In this document: piece after piece, positions 3,662-23,694 of the stretch
How positions within the stretch are numbered: position 1 is the first letter of the stretch
How the letters are laid out: every line of letters starts with the position of its first letter
DNA from: Medicago truncatula
Lineage: Eukaryota; Streptophyta; Magnoliopsida; Fabales; Fabaceae
Direction of reading: 5' to 3'
Assembly: GCF_003473485.1 (NCBI RefSeq)
Contig: NC_053044.1
Location: 7,204,501-7,268,500, forward strand
DNA: 64,000 nt
Notes under the pieces: model-generated
The model's database searches: none
Told to the model about the DNA's origin: nothing
The model's input: only the letters and a program-made list of their open reading frames with translations
Position numbers and translations under genes: made by a program

Positions 3662-4325
3662 ACAGAAAATATGGAAATCAATTAGATAGGTTTTAGGAGG
3701 AGGGAAATTAGGAAATCATGGTTAGGGTTTGGAGGAGGGGAATTAGGAAATATGGTTAGGTTTTGAAGGAGGGAAAAGTGGTTACAATTTTAGGTTAAAA
3801 TATTAAAATATGGAAATCAATTAGATAGGTTTTAGGAGGAGGGAAATTAGGAAATCATGGTTAGGGTTTGGAGGAGGGGAATTAGGAAATATGGTTAGGT
3901 TTTAAGGGAGGGAAAAGTGGTTACAATTTTAGGTTAAAATATTAAAATATGGAAATCAATTAGATAGGTTTTAGGAGGAGGGAAATTAGAAAATCATGGT
4001 TAGGGTTTGGAGGAGGGGAATTAGGAAATATTTTAGGTTAAAATATTAAAATATGGAAATCAATTAGATAGGTTTTAACAGGAGGGAAATTAGGAAATCA
4101 TGGTTAGGGTTTGGAGGAGGGGAATTAGGAAATATAGTTAGGTTTTGAAGGAGGGAAAAGTGGTTACAATTTTAGGTTAAAATATTAAAATATGGAAATC
4201 AATTAGATAGATTTTAGGAGGAGGGAAATTAGGAAATCATGGTTAGGGTTTGGAGGAGGGGAATTAGGAAATATGGTTAGATTTTGAAGGAGGGAAAAGT
4301 GCTACAATTTTAGGTTAAAATATTA
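3662..4325. repeat. Tandem array, period about 140 bp, five units
   Basis: The unit begins 'atggaaatcaattagatagg' and continues with purine-rich text containing 'ggttagggtttggaggagg', then 'gtggttacaattttaggtta'. Units start near 3669, 3809, 3948, 4053 and 4194. The third unit is about 35 bp shorter because it lacks the 'ggttaggttttgaaggaggg' part. Strand composition is strongly skewed, with G and A on the plus strand. The array lies directly upstream of the partial B3-like gene on the minus strand. Confidence 0.85.
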
Positions 4326-4400
4326 AGTATAATTAGGGCAAGAGTGTTTTGCTTAGGAATAAGAGATAAGAGATGTCACATCAAAAGAAGAAATGAGAAA

Positions 4401-6649: not shown

Positions 6650-6961
6650 GGTTTTAATATGTGTTTCGTCCCTGCAATTAGGGATCATTTAAAAATTAGT
6701 CCCTATAATCGTTAATCCTGGCAAATTACCCTTGCAAACTTAAATCATTTAAAATTTCGTCCCTACACCCACTTTAATTACTGCCACGTCATAAAATTAA
6801 CAAAATGACATGGGAATGGACAAAAATACCCTCATCATCCTTCTCCAAAACCCATATTGCAATCTCTCTTCTTCTCTTTCCCTTTCATGTATAATCTGAA
6901 CCAACCTCCATGAAACACTCTTGCTGAGCATCAAACACAACAACCTTAAAAATTAACTTGC
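6650..6961. repeat. Remnant of a 'cgtccctgcaa' class MITE
   Basis: The text 'ttaatatgtgtttcgtccctg' followed by 'agtccctataatcgttaatc' and 'aaaatttcgtccctacacc' is the typical left arm of a common legume foldback element. No matching right arm is present before the Ogre LTR begins at 6967, nor just beyond the Ogre at 23695. It therefore appears truncated rather than split by the Ogre insertion. Confidence 0.4.
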
Positions 6962-6966
6962 CACCT
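6962..6966. repeat. Ogre target site duplication, left copy
   Basis: CACCT immediately before the LTR start TGTCGCG, matching CACCT at 23690-23694 immediately after the other LTR end. A 5-bp duplication is normal for Ty3/gypsy integrases. Confidence 0.95.
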
Positions 6967-7736
6967 TGTCGCGCCACTTTTTTCGGACGTCAAGGCCATT
7001 TGATTAGCTTTTGACTCACTTTTTATCTCACGACTGAACAAATTTTTTTAAAGGGGAAAAAGTTCCAAACCACCCATTTTGAAAAGATTTAGGGTTCGGG
7101 GGTTGGTTATATTTAGGGAAGGTATTAGCACCCTAAATATTCGTAGTACTCTACGAGAACCTCTTGATTTTATTTAACTTTTTGTGCTTAAATTTGCTTG
7201 CTTTTAAAGAGATGAAAATGAAATTGAATGATGAGTTGAAAAAGAAAAGAAAATTGATTTTAATTGAAGAGAAAAAAGAAAAATGTTTTTTAGTTGAAAG
7301 TTGAAAAGAAAAAAAAGAAAGTTGTTTTTTTAATTGATTTGGAAGGACAAGGTCCTCTGCCTACGTACCCGTAAGGGATCAAAACCTCGTAGTTCGGGGT
7401 ATAAATTGACGTTTGATTTGTTGAGTGTTTTTTTATTAGTTTTAAAAAAAGGTTTTGAAAATAAAAAGCCAAGTGGCAAATGAGAATTGATTTGTGTTTT
7501 TTAGATTGAAGAAAATTGACTTGAAGTTGAATTAGAATTGATTGGAAATTTGATTAAGAAAAATAAAATAAGAAGACGGTCACTTGATTTAAGATCAAGG
7601 TTTATTGTGAAAAGTTCTTTTTATGAATTTTTGATATTTGAATGTTTTTGTTGTTTTTGAATAAAAATATGAACATTATATAAGCAGAATGAGAAAAATA
7701 AAGTTAAGCTAAATTGTGAAATTATTTTAACATGGA

Positions 7737-8185
7737 CCAGAATATTCTGGAGAGTAGTTAAGTTAAACAAAAATAAATAAATATTAACATTTAAGTTTGG
7801 ACCAGAGCACTCTAGATTAACAAAAATATAATATTAACAGTTACTTTAGGACCAGAGCACTCTGGATTAATTTAATTAACAATGACCAGAGCACTCTGGA
7901 TTAATTTAATTAACAAGGACCAGAGCACTCTGGAGAATAATTAAATTAAACAAAAATATAATATTAATAGTTAATATAGGACCAGAGCACTCTGGATTAA
8001 TTTAATTAACAAGGACCAGATTGTTCTGGAGAATAACTAAATTAAACAAGAATATAATATTAACAGGTAATTAGGACCAGAGCACTCTGGATTAATTTAA
8101 TTAACAAGGACCAGATTGTTCTGGAGAATAACTAAATTAAACAAGAATATAATATTAACAGGTAATTAGGACCAGAGCACTCTGG
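7737..8185. repeat. Array of ten CCAGA...TCTGG palindromes in the 3' LTR
   Basis: Copies start at 7737, 7802, 7852, 7885, 7920, 7982, 8015, 8077, 8111 and 8172. Most read CCAGAGCACTCTGG; two read CCAGATTGTTCTGG, one reads CCAGAATATTCTGG (a perfect palindrome), and one has a single arm mutation (CCAGAGCACTCTAG). The spacers are 'attaatttaattaacaagga' or a longer 'aataactaaattaaacaaga' type. The same array is in the other LTR at 22016-22464. Confidence 0.9.
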
Positions 8186-8332
8186 ATTAACAGATAGAGC
8201 GAGAATTAAAATGCATGAAAAAGAAATTAGAAAACTGAGATGCTGGGGGTGTGTGAGCAGTAAAGGGGGTGCAGAAAATAAAACGAAAAAAGATGGGCTA
8301 AGAACAAGGTTGGACCTCAGAGATCGAATCTC

Positions 8333-8355
8333 GGCCGTTGATTTGATCAACGGCC
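8333..8355. promoter_or_regulatory. Palindrome GGCCGTTGAT-ttg-ATCAACGGCC upstream of an antisense TATA
   Basis: Two perfect 10-bp inverted arms around a 3-bp centre, 28 bp upstream of the plus-strand TATAAATA at 8383. It is repeated in the other LTR at about 22612-22634. It could be a transcription-factor dyad or simply a hairpin; the sequence does not decide. Confidence 0.5.
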
Positions 8356-8382
8356 TTGATTTAATCTGCCAAATAAAAGGGG

Positions 8383-8927
8383 TATAAATACCCATTCTTT
8401 CCTTCTTTTCTCATTTTTTCCTTTCTCTTCTCTCTCTTCACTCTCTTATTTCTTATTTCTAGAGAGAGAGGCTCTGCCTTCTCTCTAGAATTTCGTCATC
8501 TTCTCCGACGAGGAGAGGCCACCGGAGGTGGTTCCGGCGCGGTGGCCGGTGAGCCACAGCGGCTGCGCCGCCGCGCCGAAGATGAAAGTATGTCCTTTTT
8601 TTTTTTCGCCCTCTCTCCTTCTTTTCCCTCCTTCTTTCCGATTTTTAACTCAAAAATGCTCAAAACCCAACGGTTTGACCTAGATCTAAAAGGAAAGAAA
8701 TATTACTTTTTGGGTCTGAATGTTTTAGTTTAAGATGTTGTGTTTCTGTAACACGGTTTTGAAATTCTGATGTGTGGTTTGGTTACCGGATCTGTGAGTT
8801 TGATTTGTTGATCTTGTGTTAGAGAGGTTCTGGTTTGAAATTTGTGTTTGGTGATTTGCGCTGTTATTTGTGTGATGTTGATTATGTAAAAAAAATGTTT
8901 GTGTTTTGGTTCTGGTTGTGATTGCAG
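8383..8927 (+). promoter_or_regulatory. Antisense promoter, leader and intron-like unit in the 3' LTR
   Basis: On the plus strand, opposite to the element genes, TATAAATA (8383-8390) is followed by a 100-bp pyrimidine-rich leader. A GC-rich stretch follows and ends at a donor-like AAA|GTATGT (GT at 8588-8589). T-rich sequence then runs to an acceptor-like TTGTGATTGCAG|G (AG at 8926-8927). Order and composition are exactly those of a plant gene 5' end with a leader intron of 340 nt. No long ATG-initiated frame follows. The reverse strand offers only TATTTATA at the same place. The function as an antisense promoter is inferred. Confidence 0.45.
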
Positions 8928-9407
8928 GTCAGGAAAAAAAAAGAAGTGGAGTGAAAATTGTTGTATGTGTTCTAACCGTGGAATGTTTTTTTCACGTTGG
9001 GCCCCCTTCTTTTCTTGGCTGCTTGCGTGTTGACTTTATAGAGCTTGAAATGAGCAAAAATTTGTTGCTTGGAGAGGAGATATTACAGCCTGTTTTGAGC
9101 TGTGTGTTTGGATATTATCGGACAAAATTTTGACTTATTTTTGGACATTAAAAATAAAATAAAAGGACTAAGAATAAATAATAAAAAAAGATAAAATAAA
9201 GGTTTAAAAAAAAATGAATTTAAAGTTAATAAAAGATGGAAATTAAATGAAAATTGAGAGAAGAGGGCCCGACTCGGAACCAACTATGAGGTATTTTAAA
9301 ATACCTCCCTGTCGGAATTTCGTCTGAAATAACAAAAATTCTGGTTTTAAAAATACGAATAAAAATTTAGTAAAAATAAAAAAGTGGTCAAAATTTGGGG
9401 TATGACA

Positions 9408-9420
9408 GATGCCCCTATTT
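9408..9420 (-). promoter_or_regulatory. Polypurine tract of the Ogre element
   Basis: On the minus strand the sequence AAATAGGGGCATC abuts the 3' LTR start TGTCATACC. A G-rich purine tract at this point primes plus-strand DNA synthesis in LTR retrotransposons. Confidence 0.8.
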
Positions 9421-9648
9421 AAGTTTCTTTGTCACGGAGATTTAAAAAGAAACTTTTAAATCAACGGGTCGAAGGGACTTAAATATTAAGTACACCAATT
9501 TTGACCGGTTGGAATGCTAAGAACGCAACGCTCCTGAGCTTAATGATATGAATGCATGCAATGCAATTATGAATGCAACACCGACAAAAATAGAACGACT
9601 GAGGACCAAAATGACAAGTATTACTGGGGAGAAAGAAAAACTGCATAT

Positions 9649-10310
9649 TACCTTTAAATTGGTAAAGACGACATTACCAGAAAGTAAACACATGTCCATT
9701 AACTCTAGAGTTTGGTAAAGATGACATCACAAGAAAGATAAACATATGTCTATTACCTTTAGAATTGGTAAAGACGAATCTGGAGGAAATAATCATGCCT
9801 ATTACCGTGAATTAGGTAAAGACGAATATGCAACAGAAAGAAATCCTGCCTATTACCGTGAATTAGGTAAAGACGAATATGCAAAAGAAATCATGCCTAA
9901 TACCGTGAATTAGGTAAAGACGAATATGCAAAAGAAATCATGCCTAATACCGTGAATTAGGTAAAGGCGAATACGCAACAAAGTAAATCATGCCTATTAC
10001 CGTGAATTAGGTAAAGACGAATATTTAAAGAAATCATGCCTATTACCGTGAATTAGGTAAAGACGAATATACAAGGAAAAGATCATGTCTATTACCGTGA
10101 ATTAGGTAAAGACGAATATGCAAAAGAAATCATGCCTAATACCGTGAATTAGGTAAAGGCGAATACGCAACAAAGTAAATCATGCCTATTACCGTGAATT
10201 AGGTAAAGACGAATATTTAAAGAAATCATGCCTATTACCGTGAATTAGGTAAAGACGAATATACAAGGAAAAGATCATGTCTATTACCGTGAATTAGGTA
10301 AAGACGAATG
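9649..10310. repeat. Tandem array (about 48 bp, about 14 units) in the Ogre 3' region
   Basis: The core unit is 'tattaccgtgaattaggtaa' plus 'agacgaatatgcaa' and a variable joiner. The first three units (near 9650, 9701, 9755) are diverged ('accttt-aaattggtaaag'), while later ones are nearly identical. A block of four units is itself duplicated with an offset of about 192 bp (compare 'gtaaaggcgaatacgc' at 9961 and 10153). Each unit contains an imperfect hairpin CCTAAT...ATTAGG. Confidence 0.9.
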
Positions 10311-11472: not shown

Positions 11473-14400
11473 CTAGACAAAGTATTTCTTGACTGCATCA
11501 GAATTCACAGGACGAGGTAACTCCTCTCCATCCATAGTTGTAAGAATTAAAGCACCACCAGAAAAAGCTCTTTTCACCACATAGGGACCTTCATAATTAG
11601 GTGTCCACTTTCCCCTAGGGTCTGGTTGGAAAGACGTGATACTCTTGACCACCAGGTCACCTTCTTTAAATTCACGGGGACGAACCTTTTTATCGAACGC
11701 TTGTTTCATCCTTGTCTGATATAGCTGTCCATGCCATAGAGCAGCCATGCGTTTTTCCTCAATCAAATTCAACTGATCATACCTATTTTGACACCATTCA
11801 GCCTCTGACAGCTCAGCTTCCATCAAGACCCTCAATGACGGGATTTCAACTTCTACCGGAAGTATCGCTTCCGTCCCATATACCAAAGAAAAAGGGGTTG
11901 CCCCTGTTGAAGTACGTACTGAAGTACGATAACCATACAAAGCGTAGGGTAACATCTCATGCCAGTCTTTATAGGTAACCACCATCTTCTGCACGATCTT
12001 CTTAATATTCTTGTTTGCAGCTTCGACCGCACCATTCATCTGAGGTCTATAAGGAGAAGAGTTATGATGCTCGATCTTGAAGCCATCACATAATTCCTTC
12101 ATCATTTTATTGTTCAAATTTGTGCCATTATCCGTGATGATCTTGTTGGGAACGCCATAACGGCATATGATATTGTTCTTGATAAATCGGACTACTACTT
12201 GTTTGGTCACATTGGCATAAGATGCCGCTTCGACCCATTTGGTGAAGTAGTCAATAGCCACTAGTATGAAACGATGTCCATTGGAAGCTTTTGGTTCGAT
12301 TCGACCAATCATATCAATGCCCCACATAGAGAACGGCCATGGAGAAGAGATAACATTAAGCATAGACGGTGGAACATGAATCTTATTAGCATAAATTTGG
12401 CACTTGTGGCACTTCTTGGCATAATGATGACAGTCAGCATGCATCGTTATCCAGTAGTAGCCTGCTCTCAATGCCTTCTTAGCCATTGAATATCCACTAG
12501 AATGAGTCCCGAACGAGCCTTCGTGTATCTCATGCATTAATAAATCTGCTTCACGTCGGTCCACACATCTGAGCAAAACTGAATCAAAGTTTCTTTTGTA
12601 CAAGACGTCTCCACTCAGGAAGAAATTGCCAGACAGTCTTCTTAGAGTTCTCTTATCTTTACGGGATGCCCCAGGAGGGTACTCTCGAGTTTGAAGAAAC
12701 ACTTTAATATCATGAAACCACGGTTTATCATCGAAAACTGCTTCGGCTACAAACACATAAGCGGGCCTATCAAGGAACTTGACACTGATTAGAGGCACGT
12801 CGTTGCCTCGATTCACCTTGATCATTGAAGATAAAGTTGCTAGGGCATCTGCCATTTGATTCTCATCCCGAGGAATGTGGTGCAACTCCACCTTGTTGAA
12901 GAAAGTTAATAAACATCTTGCATAGTCTCTGTAAGGTATTAATCCCGCATGGTGAGTTTCCCATTTTCCTTTGATCTGGTTAATCACAAGAGCTGAATCT
13001 CCATATATTTCAATATTTTTAATCCTTAAGTCAATGGCTTCTTCAATGCCCATGATGCAAGCTTCATATTCTGCAATATTGTTCGTGCAATCAAACCGGA
13101 GTCTTGCAGTGAAAGGGATGTGAGTACCTTTAGGAGTAAGGATAACTGCCCCTATTCCATTACCAAAGACATTGACGGCTCCATCAAAAATCAAACCCCA
13201 CTTAGAGTCTGGATCAGGACCTTCACCAAACAACGGTTCATCACAATCTTTCATTTTTAAACACATGATCTCTTCATCTGGGAAATCAAACTTGATGGGC
13301 TGATAGTCTTCAATTGGTTGATGAGCCAAATGGTCAGCAAGAACACTACCCTTGATGGCTTTCTGAGTGCGATACACAATATCATATTCAGACAATAACA
13401 TCTGCCAACGAGCAATTCTTCCTGTTAACGCCGGCTTCTCAAAAAGGTACTTGATCGGATCCATTTTGGATATCAACCAAGTAGTGTGGTAAACCATGTA
13501 GTGACGGAGACGCTTAGCGGCCCATGCCAAAGCGCAACAAGTTTTCTCAAGCATAGAATATCGGGACTCACAATCAGTAAACTTCTTACTCAAGTAGTAA
13601 ATGGCATGCTCTTTCTTTCCAGTTTCGTCTTGTTGACCAAGCACGCAGCCCATAGAATCATCCAACACAGTCAAGTACATGATCAAAGGCCTTCCTTCAA
13701 CTGGAGGGACAAGAATCGGAGGTTCTAACAAATACCCTTTGATGCTATCAAAAGCTTTCTGGCAATCTTCCGTCCAAACGATCCCCTGATCTTTACGGAG
13801 TAACTTGAATATCGGTCCACATGTGGTAGTCATATGGGAGATGAATCTGGAGATGTAGTTCAATCTTCCCAAAAAACCTCTAACTTGTTTCTCTGTCTTT
13901 GGAACCGGCATTTCCCTGATAGCTTTGACTTTGTCGGGATCTACTTCAATACCTTTCTGACTAACGATAAAACCCAAGAGCTTGCCAGATCTAATACCGA
14001 AGGTACACTTGTTAGGATTCAACCGGAGTTTGTACTTTCTCAACCGTTGAAACATCTTTAACAAATACTCAGCATGTTCTTCTTCAGTGCCTGACTTGAC
14101 AATCATATCATCCACATATACTTCAATCTCTTTATGTATCATATCATGGAATATTTTAGTCATGCCTCTCTGGTAAGTGGCGCCAGCATTTATCAATCCA
14201 AATGGCATTACTAAGTAGCAGAAAGCGCCCCATGGCGTGATGAAAGACGTCTTTTCTCTATCTTCCGGAGCCATCTTGATCTGGTTATACCCAGAAAACC
14301 CATCCATGAAGGAGAACACCTTGCATCTAGCAGTACTATCAACCAATACATCAATGTGAGGTAGAGGGAAATCATCCTTCGGACTAGCTTTGTTCAAATC

Positions 14401-14938
14401 TTGATAGTCAACACACATTCTGACCTTACCATCTTTCTTCGGAACGGGCACTATGTTGGCCAACCATTGAGGATATTCAGAGGTAATCAAGAAACCTGCG
14501 TCAATTTGCTTTCGCACTTCCTCTTTGATCTTGAGAGCCATATCTGGATGAGATCTTCTTAACTTCTGCTTGACTGGAGGACACTCGGGCTTTAGAGGCA
14601 AACGATGTTCAACAACATCAGGGTCTAACCCCGGCATGTCTTTGTAGGACCACGCAAATATATCATCATACTCTTTGAGAAGCTCAATTATCCTATTCTT
14701 GACAGATGCCTCTAATGACGCTCCAATCTTAATCTCTTTCTTATCTTCCTCAGTACCCAGGTTGATCGATTCTATTTCTTCATTATGAGGCTGAATGGCT
14801 TTTCTTTCTTGTTCTAACATCCATCTGAGCTCATTAGGAATCTCTTCATCCTCCTCTACCCAAGCCTCATAAACAGGGAACTCCCAGTTGGGCGGAAGCA
14901 TAGGGTCACTACGTTCAACGGGCTCACTTATGCTTAGT
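11473..14938 (-). CDS. Ogre pol: reverse transcriptase, two RNase H domains, integrase
   Basis: The open frame from the ATG at 14901 gives 1142 residues. RT spans about residues 110-320 with catalytic YVDD (D264, D265). A degenerate Ty3-type RNase H follows at about 400-520. A second, better preserved RNase H covers about 565-690, with acidic residues D573, E611, D635 and D685. The integrase zinc finger is H793-x6-H800 with C831-x2-C834. The integrase core is D863, D924 and E960 with exactly 35 residues between the last two, followed by a C-terminal SH3-like part to about 1140. The extra archaeal-type RNase H is a Tat/Ogre marker. The exon probably starts at 14938, after a CAG acceptor, and is in frame with the ATG. 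All catalytic residues look intact. It makes cDNA and inserts it. Confidence 0.93.
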
Positions 14939-15225
14939 CTGCATATGATTCATGATTGATTTTTAGCAAAATAGTGGATGCAGACCTTTGAAATTGATTT
15001 TTTTTTTTTTTTTTAAAGAAAAAAAAGAACAAGTTTTTGGTTTTTTGTATTACCATTTTTTAGAAAAAGCACTAAAATAAAATAACGGTCGTGATAGAAA
15101 CGACAATTTTTTATTAATACTGAAAACAACTTAAAGTAAAAACAAACCCTGCAAGATTTCACTTTCGTCTGGGGTAGGATGAAAGGAGTTTTCTTAAAAA
15201 ACAAAAACAAAGACAAACACATTAC
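14939..15225 (-). other. Predicted Ogre intron between protease and RT
   Basis: A donor AA|GTAATG overlaps the last codon of the gag-protease frame (GT at 15225-15224), and an acceptor ATATGCAG|A lies at 14939. Removing the 287 nt joins gag-protease in phase with the pol frame, 12 codons upstream of its first ATG. Ogre elements are known to carry an intron in this place, whose partial splicing sets the Gag:Pol ratio. The exact sites are my prediction. Confidence 0.75.
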
Positions 15226-18200
15226 TTAGAAAAAGGTATCGCAGAAGGGATGTCAACAGCAATCCAGTTGCAGCAGTTTCCATCAGGAGTCACAAAGTCA
15301 GGTGCCACCTCTTCTGATTGATCTTCCAAAATTGCATTAGTCTCAGGTGGTGTATTAATGAATCCGGCACTGTGAAAAGTGCCCCTAGTTGGGTCGAACA
15401 CCACTTGCTTATTGCCAGAGAAACCCAAACCTTCTTTGCGCTTGTTCTCGGGCAACTGTACTAATTGCCCCCAGCCTTCCACTTTCCCTTCTTGGATTAC
15501 TCTCTGAGCATCCCTTAGAGAGGCCATGCATGTTTCACCTTTTGTAGTACCGCTTTCAACCGAGAACCCTTGGAATGACGTTCCATCCGGACTTTCACCA
15601 CCAATGAAGGAAAAGGACGACAAATGGCTAACCAAAAGAGTTGATTCCCCACTCACTGTAACAAGCTTTCCATGACTCACAAACTTTAGCTTTTGGTGAA
15701 GAGTGGATGTTACTGCCCCTGCTTCATGAATCCATGGTCTACCCAGTAAACAGCTGTAGGAAGCTTGAATATCCATTATCTGGAATGTAACTTTAAACTC
15801 TTGGGGCCCAATAGTGATAGGTAAATCTATTTCTCCCCACACCGTCTTCCTGGATCCATCAAATGCCCTTACCGACACGCAACTGGGCCTAATAAATCCG
15901 TCTGAATACGTCAATTTATCAAAGGTTGTCTTTGCCATCACATTGAGGGAAGAACCAGTGTCTATCAAGACATTGGACAGAGAATCTGTTTTGCACATAA
16001 CAGAGATATGTAAGGCCATGTTATGATTTTTCCCCTCCACCGGGAGGTCTTCCTCACTGAAACTCAGGTTGTTGCATGCCGTCACATTTCCAACAATGCT
16101 CCCAAATTGATCCAAAGTCACATCATGGTCTACGTAGGCTTGATTCAATACTTTCATCAAGGCTTCCCTATGAGCATCAGAACTTGTCAATAGTGACATG
16201 ATAGAAATCTTGGATGGAGTCTGTAATAACTGATCCACTATCTTATAATCACTTTTCTTGATCAGTTTCAAAATTTCATCGTTATCAGTTCCACTAGGTT
16301 GACCCACACTTTTACCCTTGCTAGGATCTGCTATTGGTACTGATTCTATCACTGGAGGTTTGTTCTTTGCTTGTACAACAGCCGGAAGAATACGTCCACT
16401 TCTCAGAATTTGACTACTCACAGCAATGTTATCTACTGAAGTTGAAGGACCCAAAAGTACCCCTTTACCATCCTCTATGCCTGTAGATTCGTAGCTATAT
16501 GGAATAGCCTTCTGGGAGAAAAACAGCTTGGGTTTTGGCACACAAATTGCCAAAGGATTGACAATTGTCTTGACATTGTCTTTGAATATCGGAGTAACAA
16601 CACCAATTGGTTTCGTCCTATCCTTAAACACAGGAATTACAACACAAATGTTCTTATCTTCTCTTGTGACAACCAGCTCTCCTTGATCCATTAACCCTTG
16701 TACATCATTTTGAACTTGAATGCACCCGTGGGGATCCGCAGAACACACCTCACAATTGATATGATCGTGGCTAAACATACCTACGTTACACATCTTCACA
16801 TGCATTGGAACCAACGGGGTTCTGACATCTTGAGCGTTGGTGACGAGACCATCTTCCTGATAATTCTCAATCATGTTAACGGTCGGCCCATGAGGTGGCA
16901 GAGGGTTGTTTGGAGCAACAGGGTCAGGGTCGTTGAAGGATAAGTCCTTGTTTTGAATCAATCTTTGGACTGCGTCTTTGAGAGGGTAACAGTGCTCAAT
17001 GTCGTGCCCTGGTGCCCCTTGATGGAATTCACAAGTAAGGTCTGGGCGATACCAATGAGGTAAAGGGTTCGGCACCGGGGGACGTGGTTTAACTTGAACA
17101 AGACCCCTAGCGAGTAGGGAGGGTAACAATCCTCCATACAGCATAGGGATAGGAGGGAATTGATTTCTTGGAGGGCGAGGCTGACGAGGCTGTGGTTGTT
17201 GTGGTGGAGGATGAGGCTGACGAGGCTGTTGTTGTTGTGGTGGAAGGGGATAGTATGGTTGTTGGTAAAACGGTTGTGGCTGATAAGGTTGTGATTGATA
17301 TAGTGGTGGATAATATGGACGGTGGGCTTGAGGCCTTTGTGGTTGATAGTTTGGGTTTTGTGGAGCTGGGATGGGTGATGGAATATTAGCAACATAGGGG
17401 TAGTTGGGGTATACAGGTTGGGATCCGCCATGAGCCACCATGCCGACCTCTTGAGGATTCTTCTTTGGGTACCCATTTCCGAACTTCCTATTACCATTGG
17501 ATGACCCACTTGTCAAACTTCCTGAATAACCACCTGAAGAGGCACCATCTTTACTACCCCGTCCCTTACGGACCCATTCTTCAATACGAACACCTGCGTC
17601 TACCATGTCGGTAAACTTCTGTGAAGCACAAAGAAGCATCTTCTCTGAGTAGAAAGGGCTCAGAGTCTCATAGAACAGATCAGCCACTTCTCTTTCTTCC
17701 AAAGGCGGACGAATTTGAGCAGATTTCTGAATGAAGCGCTGGGCATACTCTTTGAAAGATTCCTTATCACCCTGAGTCATAGCTTGCAGCTCTTTTCGGT
17801 TAGGGGCCAGATAAGAGTTATATTTATACTGCTGGATGAAGGCATTAGCCAATTCCTCAAAAGTAGTGATACCCTTCAAATTCATATACCACGTGAGTGC
17901 GGGACCAGCCAAACTGTCCTGAAAACAGTAGATGAGTAGAGGTTCATTCTTCCTATGAGCCGTCATCCTCCTAACATACATGATTAAGTGCATTTCAGGG
18001 CAAGTATTCCCCGTGTACTTCTCAAAGGTTGGCACTTTAAACTTAGGAGGTATAACCACATCCGCAACCAAGCAGAGGTCATTCAAATTATGGCTAAACA
18101 CTTCCTTACCCCGGATACTCTTCAACTCTTTATGTACTGCATCGTACTTTTCTTCTAAGTTACCCACTCTATCATCACCAGCCACACTATTGGAATGATA

Positions 18201-19013
18201 AACTTGTTCCTCCTCTTGCTGGGCAGCATGCACGAGGGGTCCAGCATAAGTCATAGTAGCCTGAGGAAAAGGCTGGCCGGTCTGGTAGAACGGTGTTTGT
18301 TGCTGGCCAAGAGGGAACTGCATTTCCGGCGCATTATGACGAAGACCTTCATTAGTTGCGAGCGGCATGCCCCACGGGTAGCCTGGCGGCATACAGTACT
18401 GAGGAGGGAAAGAGAAACCGGAAGGTCCAACGGGATGGAAGCCTGAATTGTACATGTCAGTCACCAAAGGTTGTGTAGTACCAACAGCTGCGGTGGAACC
18501 AGTAGGAATTGGTTGTGAAGTATCAGCAGAAGTGGTAGGAATTGGCTGGATTGCAGGAGAACCAGCAGACTGAGAAGCTTCAACATGTGCCTGAGTGGTC
18601 TGAGCATTTTGCGCTTGAGAGGCTTGTGCCTGTGCGGCCATCATGTCAATCATCATTGCGGTTATCTTCTCCATACCTTCCTTGAGGTTACTAACCTCCT
18701 CCCTAAGGTCACTGTTCTCTTGTTCAGCAGTTGCCATCTTCTTCTTGATGTATGCTCGAGTACGGTGAACACGGGTAGGTTTGTACTGAATACGCCGGGC
18801 CACTTTGCTTTTTTCTGAGACAGAAACGAGGAGAGTATGAGACTTGGTTTTGACACTTTTTATGAATGCAATATGATGCATGATGTTATGCAAAAAAACA
18901 TTTTTGTTCATCGAAGGACTTATAAAAGTAATTTCGTAAACATTATAAAAGATAGAGGATACATTGACAAGATAATTCCCTTTCAACAAACTGAGCCAAG
19001 GGATAGACTCCAA
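15222..19013 (-). CDS. Ogre gag-protease
   Basis: The open frame has 1263 codons. The natural start is probably the second candidate ATG at 18737 (MATAEQENSDL), because the 92 residues before it look like translated leader and a coiled coil begins right there. In order it has the coiled coil (about 95-125), a Q/A/T-rich linker, the retrotransposon Gag core (about 320-470, with ALTWYMNLKG and FKEYAQRFIQ), a long P/Q-rich segment (about 540-640), a variant zinc knuckle C-x2-H-x4-GH-x4-C (CEFHQGAPGHDIEHC), and an aspartic protease with LIDTGSS (catalytic D1018). The protein forms the particle and its protease matures it. The stop TAA overlaps the predicted intron donor. Confidence 0.92.
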   Translation of the reverse strand: MESIPWLSLLKGNYLVNVSSIFYNVYEITFISPSMNKNVFLHNIMHHIAFIKSVKTKSHTLLVSVSEKSKVARRIQYKPTRVHRTRAYIKKKMATAEQENSDLREEVSNLKEGMEKITAMMIDMMAAQAQASQAQNAQTTQAHVEASQSAGSPAIQPIPTTSADTSQPIPTGSTAAVGTTQPLVTDMYNSGFHPVGPSGFSFPPQYCMPPGYPWGMPLATNEGLRHNAPEMQFPLGQQQTPFYQTGQPFPQATMTYAGPLVHAAQQEEEQVYHSNSVAGDDRVGNLEEKYDAVHKELKSIRGKEVFSHNLNDLCLVADVVIPPKFKVPTFEKYTGNTCPEMHLIMYVRRMTAHRKNEPLLIYCFQDSLAGPALTWYMNLKGITTFEELANAFIQQYKYNSYLAPNRKELQAMTQGDKESFKEYAQRFIQKSAQIRPPLEEREVADLFYETLSPFYSEKMLLCASQKFTDMVDAGVRIEEWVRKGRGSKDGASSGGYSGSLTSGSSNGNRKFGNGYPKKNPQEVGMVAHGGSQPVYPNYPYVANIPSPIPAPQNPNYQPQRPQAHRPYYPPLYQSQPYQPQPFYQQPYYPLPPQQQQPRQPHPPPQQPQPRQPRPPRNQFPPIPMLYGGLLPSLLARGLVQVKPRPPVPNPLPHWYRPDLTCEFHQGAPGHDIEHCYPLKDAVQRLIQNKDLSFNDPDPVAPNNPLPPHGPTVNMIENYQEDGLVTNAQDVRTPLVPMHVKMCNVGMFSHDHINCEVCSADPHGCIQVQNDVQGLMDQGELVVTREDKNICVVIPVFKDRTKPIGVVTPIFKDNVKTIVNPLAICVPKPKLFFSQKAIPYSYESTGIEDGKGVLLGPSTSVDNIAVSSQILRSGRILPAVVQAKNKPPVIESVPIADPSKGKSVGQPSGTDNDEILKLIKKSDYKIVDQLLQTPSKISIMSLLTSSDAHREALMKVLNQAYVDHDVTLDQFGSIVGNVTACNNLSFSEEDLPVEGKNHNMALHISVMCKTDSLSNVLIDTGSSLNVMAKTTFDKLTYSDGFIRPSCVSVRAFDGSRKTVWGEIDLPITIGPQEFKVTFQIMDIQASYSCLLGRPWIHEAGAVTSTLHQKLKFVSHGKLVTVSGESTLLVSHLSSFSFIGGESPDGTSFQGFSVESGTTKGETCMASLRDAQRVIQEGKVEGWGQLVQLPENKRKEGLGFSGNKQVVFDPTRGTFHSAGFINTPPETNAILEDQSEEVAPDFVTPDGNCCNWIAVDIPSAIPFSK

Positions 19014-19083
19014 AGTACATAAAAGAAAGCGAAAACAGAAAAGATAAGAACATTTTGGGAAATTCTTGAGCCCCTGAAGTAGA

Positions 19084-20502
19084 CTACTCCTCGGAATCTA
19101 AATGTGGACCATTAAAGAGATCCATGCGCCTCTTTTTTCTCCCAGGACAAATCTTGTCAAGAAAATCCTCCTTCTTTTGGATAGAGGCTTTCAGCCTAGA
19201 GTTTTCATTCCTTTCCCTGCGATTGGCTTGAATCTGCTGATCCAGTAGGTTTTTCACCGTATCATACTCTTGCTTCTTTTTGCGGTACTTCACTTCCCAC
19301 ATGGACCTCTCACGCCTTTCAATGTCCAACTGTTTTTGGTACCCTTCCAAGGACTTAGGAGGTAAAGGTAAAGGTATATCTGAAATGGTTGAGGTTACAA
19401 GCCTTTGGCGAGGGTAAGGCATCTTCCATTTATTAGCCCGATCGATGACCCATTGGACATAAACTTCATGGGCGATAACCGACCTCTTTCCTAACAGATT
19501 TCTATCTTTCCTAACAATGGAGCACCAAGCTTTCTCGAATTGTGCTTTTTGATTTGCATCGTCCTCTTTGTAGAGGAAGAAGTCCCTATCTAGGATGAGG
19601 TATACGGGCTTCATTTCCATATAATATCCAAACTGTCGTCTAGCTAGAACTGGGTTGTAACTAATTCCTCCACGCGTACCAAGAAGAGGTACGTTGTTGA
19701 AGTCCCCACAACTGTCAATGACAAACTCAGGGTTACAAGTTGGGTTAAACCAAACTATGTCGTTAGGGGTGAGGGTCATGAGCTTCTTAGACCAAGGGAG
19801 ATACTCTGGTCTAACCTTAGGGCGAGGTAAGTGTGAGGTGATCCAGATGTGGAGTAGAGGTGCACAGCAAATGATGGTTCCACGCTCTTTATCGGTACGC
19901 TCATGGATGGAAACATAAGTGTCGGCAAGCAAGGTAGGAATCGGGTTTTGGGTTAGAAAGATTTGGATGGCATTCATGTCGACAAATTTGTCAATATTCG
20001 GGAAGAGCACAATACCATAGATGAGCAAAGCAAGGATAGCCTCAAAAGTATCGGTCTCGGATCTTTCAAAACAAATGGTGGCTTTTTGGTAGAGGAAGTT
20101 GTAGGGTAGACATTGGAGACCGGCTCTGGTGATGAATTTGTTCTTTATATCAGCTATCTCAAGGTGAAGGGCATTTGCAATGGCTGGGATTTTAGGACCG
20201 GGTTCAAGACCATGGAAGGGTACTTGGTCGAGTACTGGTAAACCGACCCAGTGGGAATATTCTTCAAGTGTGGGAACAAGCTGGTAATCCGGGAATGTAA
20301 AGCAATGATAGAGTGGATCATAGAACTGGACTAAAGTGTTGATGAGCCCCTCATCTACATCCGTCTTGAGAATATTGAGCAGATATTCGTACCGATTTCG
20401 AAAGTGTTCTGGATTCTTCACCATCCCCCCTAGCTTTCTTAAGCTCTTTAAATCTGGTTTCTTGAATTCATACCTGTGAGTTCTCCTTACAGCATTCTCC
20501 AT
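19084..20502 (-). CDS. Ogre extra 5' ORF (DUF7745/plant-mobile-domain-like)
   Basis: 472 residues, 70 nt upstream of the gag frame. The N-terminal two thirds contain FYDPLYHCFTFPDYQLVPTL and EEYSHWVGLP, a pattern I recognise from the uncharacterised ORF1 of Ogre elements and distantly from plant mobile domain proteins. The C-terminal 90 residues are a charged coiled coil (ERRERSMWEVKYRKKKQEYD) ending in a basic patch (PGRKKRRMD) that could be a nuclear localisation signal. Position, length and full openness argue it is under selection in the element. Its molecular role is unknown. Confidence 0.85.
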   Translation of the reverse strand: MENAVRRTHRYEFKKPDLKSLRKLGGMVKNPEHFRNRYEYLLNILKTDVDEGLINTLVQFYDPLYHCFTFPDYQLVPTLEEYSHWVGLPVLDQVPFHGLEPGPKIPAIANALHLEIADIKNKFITRAGLQCLPYNFLYQKATICFERSETDTFEAILALLIYGIVLFPNIDKFVDMNAIQIFLTQNPIPTLLADTYVSIHERTDKERGTIICCAPLLHIWITSHLPRPKVRPEYLPWSKKLMTLTPNDIVWFNPTCNPEFVIDSCGDFNNVPLLGTRGGISYNPVLARRQFGYYMEMKPVYLILDRDFFLYKEDDANQKAQFEKAWCSIVRKDRNLLGKRSVIAHEVYVQWVIDRANKWKMPYPRQRLVTSTISDIPLPLPPKSLEGYQKQLDIERRERSMWEVKYRKKKQEYDTVKNLLDQQIQANRRERNENSRLKASIQKKEDFLDKICPGRKKRRMDLFNGPHLDSEE

Positions 20503-21223
20503 ATCTACGATGTTTACAACAAGGTTATATAAGTCCTTCGATGTTTAATGAATGGGAAAAAATATTTATGCATGTATGCATGTATGTATGTTTATGCTAG
20601 AAAACATGGTGAGGTTGAATCCATAAGGTTGGAGTCAAGGGTACAATGTTATTTGGTAAGGACTATGGTTTAAATTGTACTTGTATCACAGGTTCTACCA
20701 AGTTCCCAAAGTCTACAACCCCCTCCAAATTTCATTGGGTGACGGGACAACACCCGGTCCAACAACGTTCGTAGGAAAGTCTCGTTTGAGTGTAGCATCG
20801 CGTGTCGACTAATTCCAAGACAACACTTGGTTAGCCACCGCACTACGTCCTAAAAGCCAAGATCGGTTAAGGGTTACTAAAGGTCCTTAGCTTCAATGGA
20901 AACTTAAGAGTAATAAAGTCTAAACGTGAAAACACACGCCGACATATATCACTTTAAGCTCCTCCGCTAAGTGTGGCCATATCACATGTTCCAAAACACG
21001 AGAATACTCTCGGAATGTCACTATGATTCCGCCACTCCTATCTTATATTTCCCTCAAGCCCGGGTTGGGACTTATCTCACCACTCACATTTAAGGGAAAA
21101 AAGAAAGAAAAAGGGAAAAACATATATACACATATTTTCATCTTTTATTTGATTTTTTTTTAGCAAGCAATAGCACAAAGAATTAAATAAAGCCAAGTTA
21201 GGCTCAACCCTCTTAGGACATCA
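20503..21223 (-). other. Ogre 5' leader between primer site and ORF1
   Basis: About 720 nt without a coding frame. The plus strand shows a T/A-rich stretch with 'catgtatgcatgtatgtatg' near 20571 and a polypurine run 'aaagaaagaaaaagggaaaa' near 21099. I see no other structure. Confidence 0.6.
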
Positions 21224-21245: not shown

Positions 21246-23689
21246 TGTCGCGCCACTTTTTTCGGACGTCAAGGCCATTTGATTAGCTTTTGACTCACTT
21301 TTTATCTCACGACTGAACAAATTTTTTTAAAGGGGAAAAAGTTCCAAACCACCCATTTTGAAAAGATTTAGGGTTCGGGGGTTGGTTATATTTAGGGAAG
21401 GTATTAGCACCCTAAATATTTGTAGTACTCTACGAGAACCTCTTGATTTTATTTAACTTTTTGTGCTTAAACTTGCTTGCTTTTAAAGAGATGAAAATGA
21501 AATTGAATGATGAGTTGAAAAAGAAAAGAAAATTGATTTTAATTGAAGAGAAAAAAGAAAAATGTTTTTTAGTTGAAAGTTGAAAAGAAAAAAAAGAAAG
21601 TTGTTTTTTTAATTGATTTGGAAGGACAATGTCCTCTGCCTACGTACCCGTGAGGGATCAAAACCTCGTAGTTCGGGGTATAAATTGACGTTTGATTTGT
21701 TGAGTGTTTTTTTATTAGTTTTAAAAAAAGGTTTTGAAAATAAAAAGCCAAGTGGCAAATGAGAATTGATTTGTGTTTTTTAGATTGAAGAAAATTGACT
21801 TGAAGTTGAATTAGAATTGATTGGAAATTTGATTAAGAAAAATAAAATAAGAAGACGGTCACTTGATTTAAGATCAAGGTTTATTGTGAAAAGTTCTTTT
21901 TATGAATTTTTGATATTTGAATGTTTTTGTTGTTTTTGAATAAAAATATGAACATTATATAAGCAGAATGAGAAAAATGAAGTTAAGCTAAATTGTGAAA
22001 TTATTTTAACATGGACCAGAATATTCTAGAGAGTAATTAAGTTAAACAAAAATAAATAAATATTAACATTTAAGTTTGGACCAGAGCACTCTGGATTAAC
22101 AAAAATATAATATTAACAGTTACTTTAGGACCAGAGCACTCTGGATTAATTTAATTAACAATGACCAGAGCACTCTGGATTAATTTAATTAACAAGGACC
22201 AGAGCACTCTGGAGAATAATTAAATTAAACAAAAATATAATATTAATAGTTAATATAGGACCAGAGCACTCTGGATTAATTTAATTAACAAGGACCAGAT
22301 TGTTCTGGAGAATAACTAAATTAAACAAGAATATAATATTAACAGGTAATTAGGACCAGAGCACTCTGGATTAATTTAATTAACAAGGACCAGATTGTTC
22401 TGGAGAATAACTAAATTAAACAAGAATATAATATTAACAGGTAATTAGGACCAGAGCACTCTGGATTAACAGATAGAGCGAGAATTAAAATGCATGAAAA
22501 AGAAATTAGAAAACTGAGATGCTGGGGGTGTGTGAGCAGTAAAGGGGGTGCAGAAAATAAAACGAAAAAAGATGGGCTAAGAACAAGGTTGGACCTCAGA
22601 GATCGAATCTCGGCCGTTGATTTGATCAACGGCCTTGATTTAATCTGCCAAATAAAAGGGGTATAAATACCCATTCTTTCCTTCTTTTCTCATTTTTTCC
22701 TTTCTCTTCTCTCTCTTCACTCTCTTATTTCTTATTTCTAGAGAGAGAGGCTCTGCCTTCTCTCTAGAATTTCGTCATCTTCTCCGACGAGGAGAGGCCA
22801 CCGGAGGTGGTTCCGGCGCGGTGGCCGGTGAGCCACAGCGGCTGCGCCGCCGCGCCGAAGATGAAAGTATGTCCTTTTTTTTTTTCGCCCTCTCTCCTTC
22901 TTTTCCCTCCTTCTTTCCGATTTTTAACTCAAAAATGCTCAAAACCCAACGGTTTGACCTAGATCTAAAAGGAAAGAAATATTACTTTTTGGGTCTGAAT
23001 GTTTTAGTTTAAGATGTTGTGTTTCTGTAACACGGTTTTGAAATTCTGATGTGTGGTTTGGTTACCGGATCTGTGAGTTTGATTTGTTGATCTTGTGTTA
23101 GAGAGGTTCTGGTTTGAAATTTGTGTTTGGTGATTTGCGCTGTTATTTGTGTGATGTTGATTATGTAAAAAAAAATGTTTGTGTTTTGGTTCTGGTTGTG
23201 ATTGCAGGTCAGGAAAAAAAAAGAAGTGGAGTGAAAATTGTTGTATGTGTTCTAACCGTGGAATATTTTTTTCACGTTGGGCCCCCTTCTTTTCTTGGCT
23301 GCTTGCGTGTTGACTTTACAGAGCTTGAAATGAGCAAAAATTTGTTGCTTGGAGAGGAGATATTACAGCCTGTTTTGAGCTGTGTGTTTGGATATTATCG
23401 GACAAAATTTTGACTTATTTTTGGACATTAAAAATAAAATAAAAGGACTAAGAATAAATAATAAAAAAAGATAAAATAAAGGTTTAAAAAAAAAAATGAA
23501 TTTAAAGTTAATAAAAGATGGAAATTAAATGAAAATTGAGAGAAGAGGGCCCGACTCGGAACCAACTATGAGGTATTTTAAAATACCTCCCTGTCGGAAT
23601 TTCGTCTGAAATAACAAAAATTCTGGTTTTAAAAATACGAATAAAAATTTAGTAAAAATAAAAAAGTGGTCAAAATTTGGGGTATGACA
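21246..23689 (-). repeat. Ogre 5' LTR
   Basis: 2444 bp, same order of parts as the other LTR: palindrome array (22016-22464), 10-bp dyad (about 22612), plus-strand TATAAATA (22662-22669), GC-rich segment and intron-like signals (GT at 22867, AG at 23206-23207). The promoter for the element should lie in this LTR on the minus strand. A plus-strand promoter here would fire outward into flanking DNA beyond 23690. Confidence 0.95.
22662..23207 (+). promoter_or_regulatory. Antisense promoter, leader and intron-like unit in the 5' LTR
   Basis: Second copy of the unit described at 8383-8927. TATAAATA, pyrimidine leader, GTATGT donor and GATTGCAG acceptor are all unchanged. The only differences nearby are a poly-A length change and scattered substitutions outside the signals. 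In this copy transcription would leave the element toward 23690. Confidence 0.4.
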
Positions 23690-23694
23690 CACCT
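23690..23694. repeat. Ogre target site duplication, right copy
   Basis: CACCT directly after the LTR end TATGACA, identical to 6962-6966. Confidence 0.95.

Follow-up and report, generated by a model that had tools for sequence, protein, structure and literature searches.

Several plant retrotransposons carry promoters directed against gag-pol, described in AtRE1 of Arabidopsis and Mdoryco1-1 of apple, and antisense RNA has been proposed as a silencer of plant elements acting through double-stranded RNA (PMC7264820). Among viruses, HTLV-1 (with HBZ) and HIV-1 are transcribed in antisense from the 3′ LTR; these RNAs extend into the provirus and can encode protein, and interference between the sense and antisense promoters that share one LTR is discussed for both (PMC10186651). 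Antisense ORFs are also described in the retrotransposons Grande, RIRE2 and Retand, where the antisense units encode protein and sit in the interval from pol to the LTR; in Grande a promoter is located upstream of gene23 (PMC7264820, PMC11963269). The rice element Retrosat2, in turn, has an LTR of over 3.2 kb that combines a short U3 bearing a TATA box with a very long R region (PMC3485330).

Within the window, the whole 64,000-nucleotide stretch of Medicago truncatula DNA analysed here, an Ogre-type element on the minus strand shares features with each of these systems. As in AtRE1 and Mdoryco1-1, whose promoter location that account does not state (PMC7264820), a promoter directed against gag-pol appears to be present, here in the LTR; the putative Ogre promoter differs in its canonical TATA box, kept in nearly all LTRs compared and facing a sense TATA box, with poly(A)-like signals ahead of the LTR edge. 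Sense and antisense promoters would occupy one LTR as in HTLV-1 and HIV-1, but the Ogre antisense RNA would lack a conserved ORF, to judge from the pieces read, and probably stops before leaving the LTR. As in Grande, RIRE2 and Retand, the antisense unit would belong to a Ty3/gypsy element and lie towards its 3′ LTR, whereas no ORF of their kind is seen in the Ogre element (PMC7264820, PMC11963269). The resemblance to Retrosat2 lies in the short U3 with its TATA box and the very long R region; the word "antisense" is absent from the main text of that report (PMC3485330).

The element comprises the following parts, the coding features being taken from the ORF list and Pfam:

6967..9407, minus strand: 3′ LTR (left), 99.5% identical to 21246–23689, with TG...CA ends
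11473..20544, minus strand: coding region of the Ogre-type element
14949–11473, minus strand: ORF for reverse transcriptase (RT), RNase H, a second RNase H-like domain and integrase
19097–15222, minus strand: gag ORF, in which Pfam names gag and no protease
20544–19084, minus strand: ORF1, matching DUF7745 (E 5.2e-128)
21246..23689, minus strand: 5′ LTR (right) of the same element

A 5-bp target duplication, CACCT, flanks the element on both sides (6962–6966 and 23690–23694). The Pfam order in pol (RVT_1, RT_RNaseH, RVT_3, Integrase_H2C2, rve) is the gypsy order expected of Ogre, a member of the Tat group of Ty3/gypsy elements, and an extra ORF, ORF1 with its DUF7745 match, stands upstream of gag, a mark of Ogre. 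A protease-like DTGSS motif is visible in the translated gag ORF, and the break between ORFs at 15222/14949 fits, as judged from ORF positions, the intron between protease and RT in Ogre.

A preliminary description of this DNA had read the plus strand of both LTRs as a gene-like 5′ end, and the signals it named do lie where it placed them, on the strand that is antisense because gag-pol is on the minus strand. The features relevant to this reading, and to the opposing sense promoter, are:

8383..8390, plus strand: antisense TATA box TATAAATA in the left LTR
8394..8490, plus strand: pyrimidine-rich leader, defined by composition
8412..8413, plus strand: CA, the likely antisense start judged from the sequence, about 30 nt past the TATA box
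8536..8577, plus strand: GC-rich patch, predicted to be able to form a strong hairpin
8588..8593, plus strand: proposed splice donor GTATGT, present in the window and not conserved
8920..8927, plus strand: proposed acceptor GATTGCAG, its position not conserved and its TTGYAG motif recurrent
9034..9040, minus strand: sense TATA box, towards gag-pol
9153..9233, plus strand: six AATAAA motifs that may act as poly(A) signals for the antisense RNA
22662..22669, plus strand: antisense TATA box in the right LTR, TATAAATA as in the left

The preliminary description had noted that both copies preserve every signal, which is no evidence for this reading: LTRs are identical at insertion, and near-identity of the pair is expected in a young element. 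Since presence in both LTRs is uninformative, we turned to other Ogre LTRs of the same genome. In a search with 8383–8927 as query, 40 of 484 candidates were scored and yielded 44 matches, and 38 loci were fetched; with 12 second LTRs dropped, the main set consisted of 27 LTRs (the window and 26 others) aligned from about 8300 to 9150. Thirteen further LTRs were gathered with queries lacking the TATA box, eight through 8436–8600 and five through a U5 query (6980–7420), so that 52 loci were considered (that of the window, the 38 and these 13) among hundreds of candidates. All copies are related and come from one genome, so the counts below are not counts of independent events.

The alignment shows the antisense TATA box to be kept beyond chance while its flanks turn over. 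Every one of the 27 LTRs has a plus-strand TATAWAW in the 60 nt that precede the aligned start, located at −31/−32 in 24 and at −42 in three (L037, L039 and L041); in dinucleotide shuffles the chance of finding one at −46 to −20 averages 0.0038 per LTR. At 60% identity the flanks of the 27 boxes fall into six context clusters, one holding 15 LTRs; some of the small clusters overlap in part, and by eye the number of clearly distinct ones is perhaps four. Once the three −42 LTRs are excluded, seven of the eight columns of 8383–8390 are invariant and the neighbouring columns vary; of 843 overlapping 8-mers, 7 reach this degree of invariance, 8383–8390 included. The motif is strand-specific, minus-strand TATAWAW being absent from the same 60-nt segment in 22 of the 27. 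It recurs in all 12 second LTRs left out of the main count and in 12 of the 13 further LTRs (8/8 from the 8436–8600 query, 4/5 from the U5 query), and each of these last 12 has a CA 29–39 nt from the start of the TATA box with 70–92% pyrimidines behind it. The exception, L055 from the U5 query, has TATAWAW solely inside a TA simple repeat readable on both strands and a GA repeat in place of the pyrimidine-rich leader; its sense TATA box is present (piece 1–620). The part of the earlier interpretation that finds support is an antisense core promoter, kept in the family through turnover of its surroundings; an intron as a family feature and a captured host promoter, both discussed below, find none among the loci compared.

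The sense TATA box, which did not figure in the preliminary description, lies on the opposite strand at 9040–9034, so that the two promoters would be convergent. All 27 LTRs have a minus-strand TATAWA in this stretch, where shuffles would give 2.7, and so do all 12 second LTRs; in the further set, where boxes were chosen by place and context, TATAWAW is found in 13 of 13. Its position puts the sense start near 9010 and would give a U3 of about 400 bp. The facing boxes are some 650 bp apart in the window and 533–703 bp apart in 12 further LTRs. Another candidate for the sense promoter, at 7676–7684 on the minus strand (TTATATAATG), was dropped because, unlike the TATA box at 9040–9034, it is not kept across LTRs. 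In the right (5′) LTR the sense TATA box at 23314–23320 differs by one substitution from that at 9034–9040 in the left, and the 5′ LTR of this copy may therefore be a weak sense promoter.

Candidate end signals for the antisense RNA cluster in U3. In the stretch 150–300 nt inside the outer LTR edge, all 25 scored LTRs carry three to seven plus-strand AATAAA motifs, 115 in total against 47 expected from dinucleotide-keeping shuffles, compared with none to two per LTR on the minus strand; taken LTR by LTR, the count alone is unremarkable in 12 of the 25 (shuffle fraction above 0.05). Along the LTR, plus-strand AATAAA peaks in the bin 9150–9249 (84 motifs) and is also frequent at 7550–7949 (19–30 per 100 bp) and 8250–8349 (22). 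The excess could reflect an A-rich stretch retained for another reason. Given the U3 cluster, an antisense RNA starting at 8413 would be about 0.75–0.85 kb long and end inside the LTR. The suggestion that it runs into the element from the left LTR and into flanking DNA from the right one is weakened, since the AATAAA clusters precede the outer edge of the LTR; transcription may continue into element or flank, but nothing requires it to.

Such an RNA is most likely non-coding, to judge from its unspliced reading frames. Among the 27 LTR pieces (679–831 nt), no conserved ORF was seen in the antisense unit read without splicing, the longest ATG-initiated ORF per piece ranging from 29 to 107 amino acids and lying at differing places. 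On the plus strand from the LTR to the end of pol, stop codons leave no open stretch longer than 82 codons, and no antisense ORF of the Grande or Retand type was found between pol and the 3′ LTR in the unspliced reading; within the LTR the longest open stretches are 118 codons (8377–8733) and 83 codons (8882–9133).

These LTRs contain both TATA boxes, retained and convergent, together with the AATAAA cluster, and the pieces read show no conserved ORF; from this we infer promoter use and the places where the RNA would start and end. The explanation that we judge probable is that the Ogre LTR contains an antisense unit, driven by its TATA box against the sense promoter, whose non-coding RNA ends within the LTR. 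Each LTR would then possess a second Pol II promoter, made up of the antisense TATA box, the CA start and the pyrimidine-rich leader and opposed to the sense promoter some 530–700 bp away; its RNA would cross the sense start site and the sense TATA box before terminating at the U3 poly(A) signals, still within the LTR. Sense transcription might thereby be lowered or timed, either through polymerase collision or through double-stranded RNA that gives rise to small RNAs and methylation.

That the unit constitutes a complete, self-terminating antisense non-coding gene laid over the sense promoter, and so a built-in brake on Ogre, is a more tentative proposal, possible rather than probable. Were it true, each new copy would add antisense RNA across the start site of all copies, and copy number would be limited or expression timed. 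If nearly every LTR bears a promoter aimed at its own sense start, the family itself would supply one half of the double-stranded RNA needed for silencing, and solo LTRs would remain sources of antisense RNA. Double-stranded RNA is a route that plants use for silencing, and Ogre elements make up a large share of some legume genomes. Transcription of Ogre was reportedly treated by Neumann et al. in 2003; a literature search covering titles and the openings of abstracts, with subscription papers mostly outside it, turned up no description of antisense promoters or start sites for Ogre LTRs. What would be new is a TATA-driven antisense unit, opposed to the sense promoter and equipped with its own end signals, that nearly all examined LTRs retain in a strand-specific manner.

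The alternative that survives best, unlikely as we find it, is that there is no antisense unit: the conserved blocks would serve either the sense promoter or the sense RNA, the latter as parts of a long R–U5 leader with a GC hairpin, and the antisense TATA box would be a leftover. The blocks sit downstream of the sense TATA box and hence within the sense RNA, and those at 8565–8580 and 8678–8689 have no known promoter meaning. The GC-rich patch, which lies at about 8500–8580 on the plus strand as first described, is part of a region that folds on either strand: 8414–8600 is predicted to fold more stably than shuffled sequence with z of −6.5 on the plus and −5.5 on the minus strand. RNA structure as the reason for the patch was nonetheless set aside, since the strong fold has no support from covariation. 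Its GC helix is paired in 94.6% of cells across the alignment, with no pair changed on both sides among the aligned LTRs; of five measures, the share of paired cells alone is slightly above shuffles (85.4% against 84.7%, a value matched by 24 of 500), and neither changed-pair counts nor the covariation score of the whole structure exceed them. Wobble changes in the stem were also used as a strand test: C>T outnumbers G>A by 8 to 1 across 17 pairs and by 4 to 0 within the 11-pair core, compared with 71 to 62 outside. This result was discarded because the events are few and the pairs were picked from the plus-strand fold. No Rfam family reaches its gathering score in 6900–9500. The patch is a conserved GC-rich palindrome and not a proven RNA structure. 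Against a purely sense role for the segment stand the strand specificity of the antisense box and its retention while the flanks change.

Also unlikely, and a little more doubtful, is a spliced antisense RNA, as the preliminary description had it, with exon 1 extending to 8587, an intron at 8588–8927 and then exon 2. GTATGT and TTGCAG are both present in the window, and the supposed intron body is the most variable part of the region, with identities of 0.20–0.28 at 8860–8939. The donor is not a conserved one: of 27 LTRs, 9 have GT at 8588–8589 and 4 have GTNNG, and pairwise identity in columns 8588–8592 is 0.33–0.52 against 0.93–1.0 at 8578–8581, so that the lowest identities between two conserved blocks coincide with the donor itself. 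Behind the hairpin arm, the GT expected at the donor place is absent in all eight readable cases among 12 further LTRs, and no alternative donor shared by the 27 LTRs was found with a donor score built on assumed frequencies. The acceptor fares differently: its aligned position is not kept (mean identity 0.21 over 8920–8939), but TTGYAG recurs on the plus strand between 8720 and 8990 in 19 of 27 LTRs against 4.4 expected, in at least five contexts by eye, several of them unrelated, and on the other strand in 3 of 27. This recurrence leaves room for splicing in subfamilies with changing donors.

Far less probable is an origin of the segment by capture of a host gene promoter together with its first exon and intron. 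The order of its signals is gene-like, but all 38 fetched loci (from 40 scored of 484 candidates, and by the alignment test alone) align to the window LTR beyond the query segment, 37 of them over most of the LTR length, the other being L018, which aligns between 8403 and 9320 only and probably pairs with L026 as the LTRs of a single element; moreover, the upstream modules differ between subfamilies, so no single host source is visible. The least credible reading of all, given the short open stretches and shifting ORF places reported above, is that the antisense RNA serves as messenger for an extra antisense ORF of the kind known from the related lineages of Grande and Retand (PMC7264820, PMC11963269).

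Repeats accompany the element and its surroundings. Both LTRs contain a tandem minisatellite (7720–8190 and 21999–22469) whose units measure about 34, 50 and 95 bp and are based on the near-palindrome CCAGAGCACTCTGG; it lies upstream of the antisense TATA box, and many related LTRs give overlapping matches to it. Between pol and the 3′ LTR lies a 47/96-bp tandem array (9657–10309); 3′ tandem arrays are known in Tat-group elements. Retand, for one, is described with tandem repeats before its 3′ LTR (PMC11963269). Elsewhere in the genome, at G000:C8:22354940-22397249, four same-strand U5 matches are spaced by about 14.0, 13.9 and 14.0 kb, which resembles a head-to-tail array of elements sharing LTRs. 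Outside the element, a 139-bp tandem array of about 4.8 copies occupies 3665–4326, and two arrays of 31/60-bp units, at 1183–1349 and 1399–1596, are apparent reverse complements of each other (GGTCCCTTAACT and AGTTAAGGGACC) and possibly form a large hairpin.
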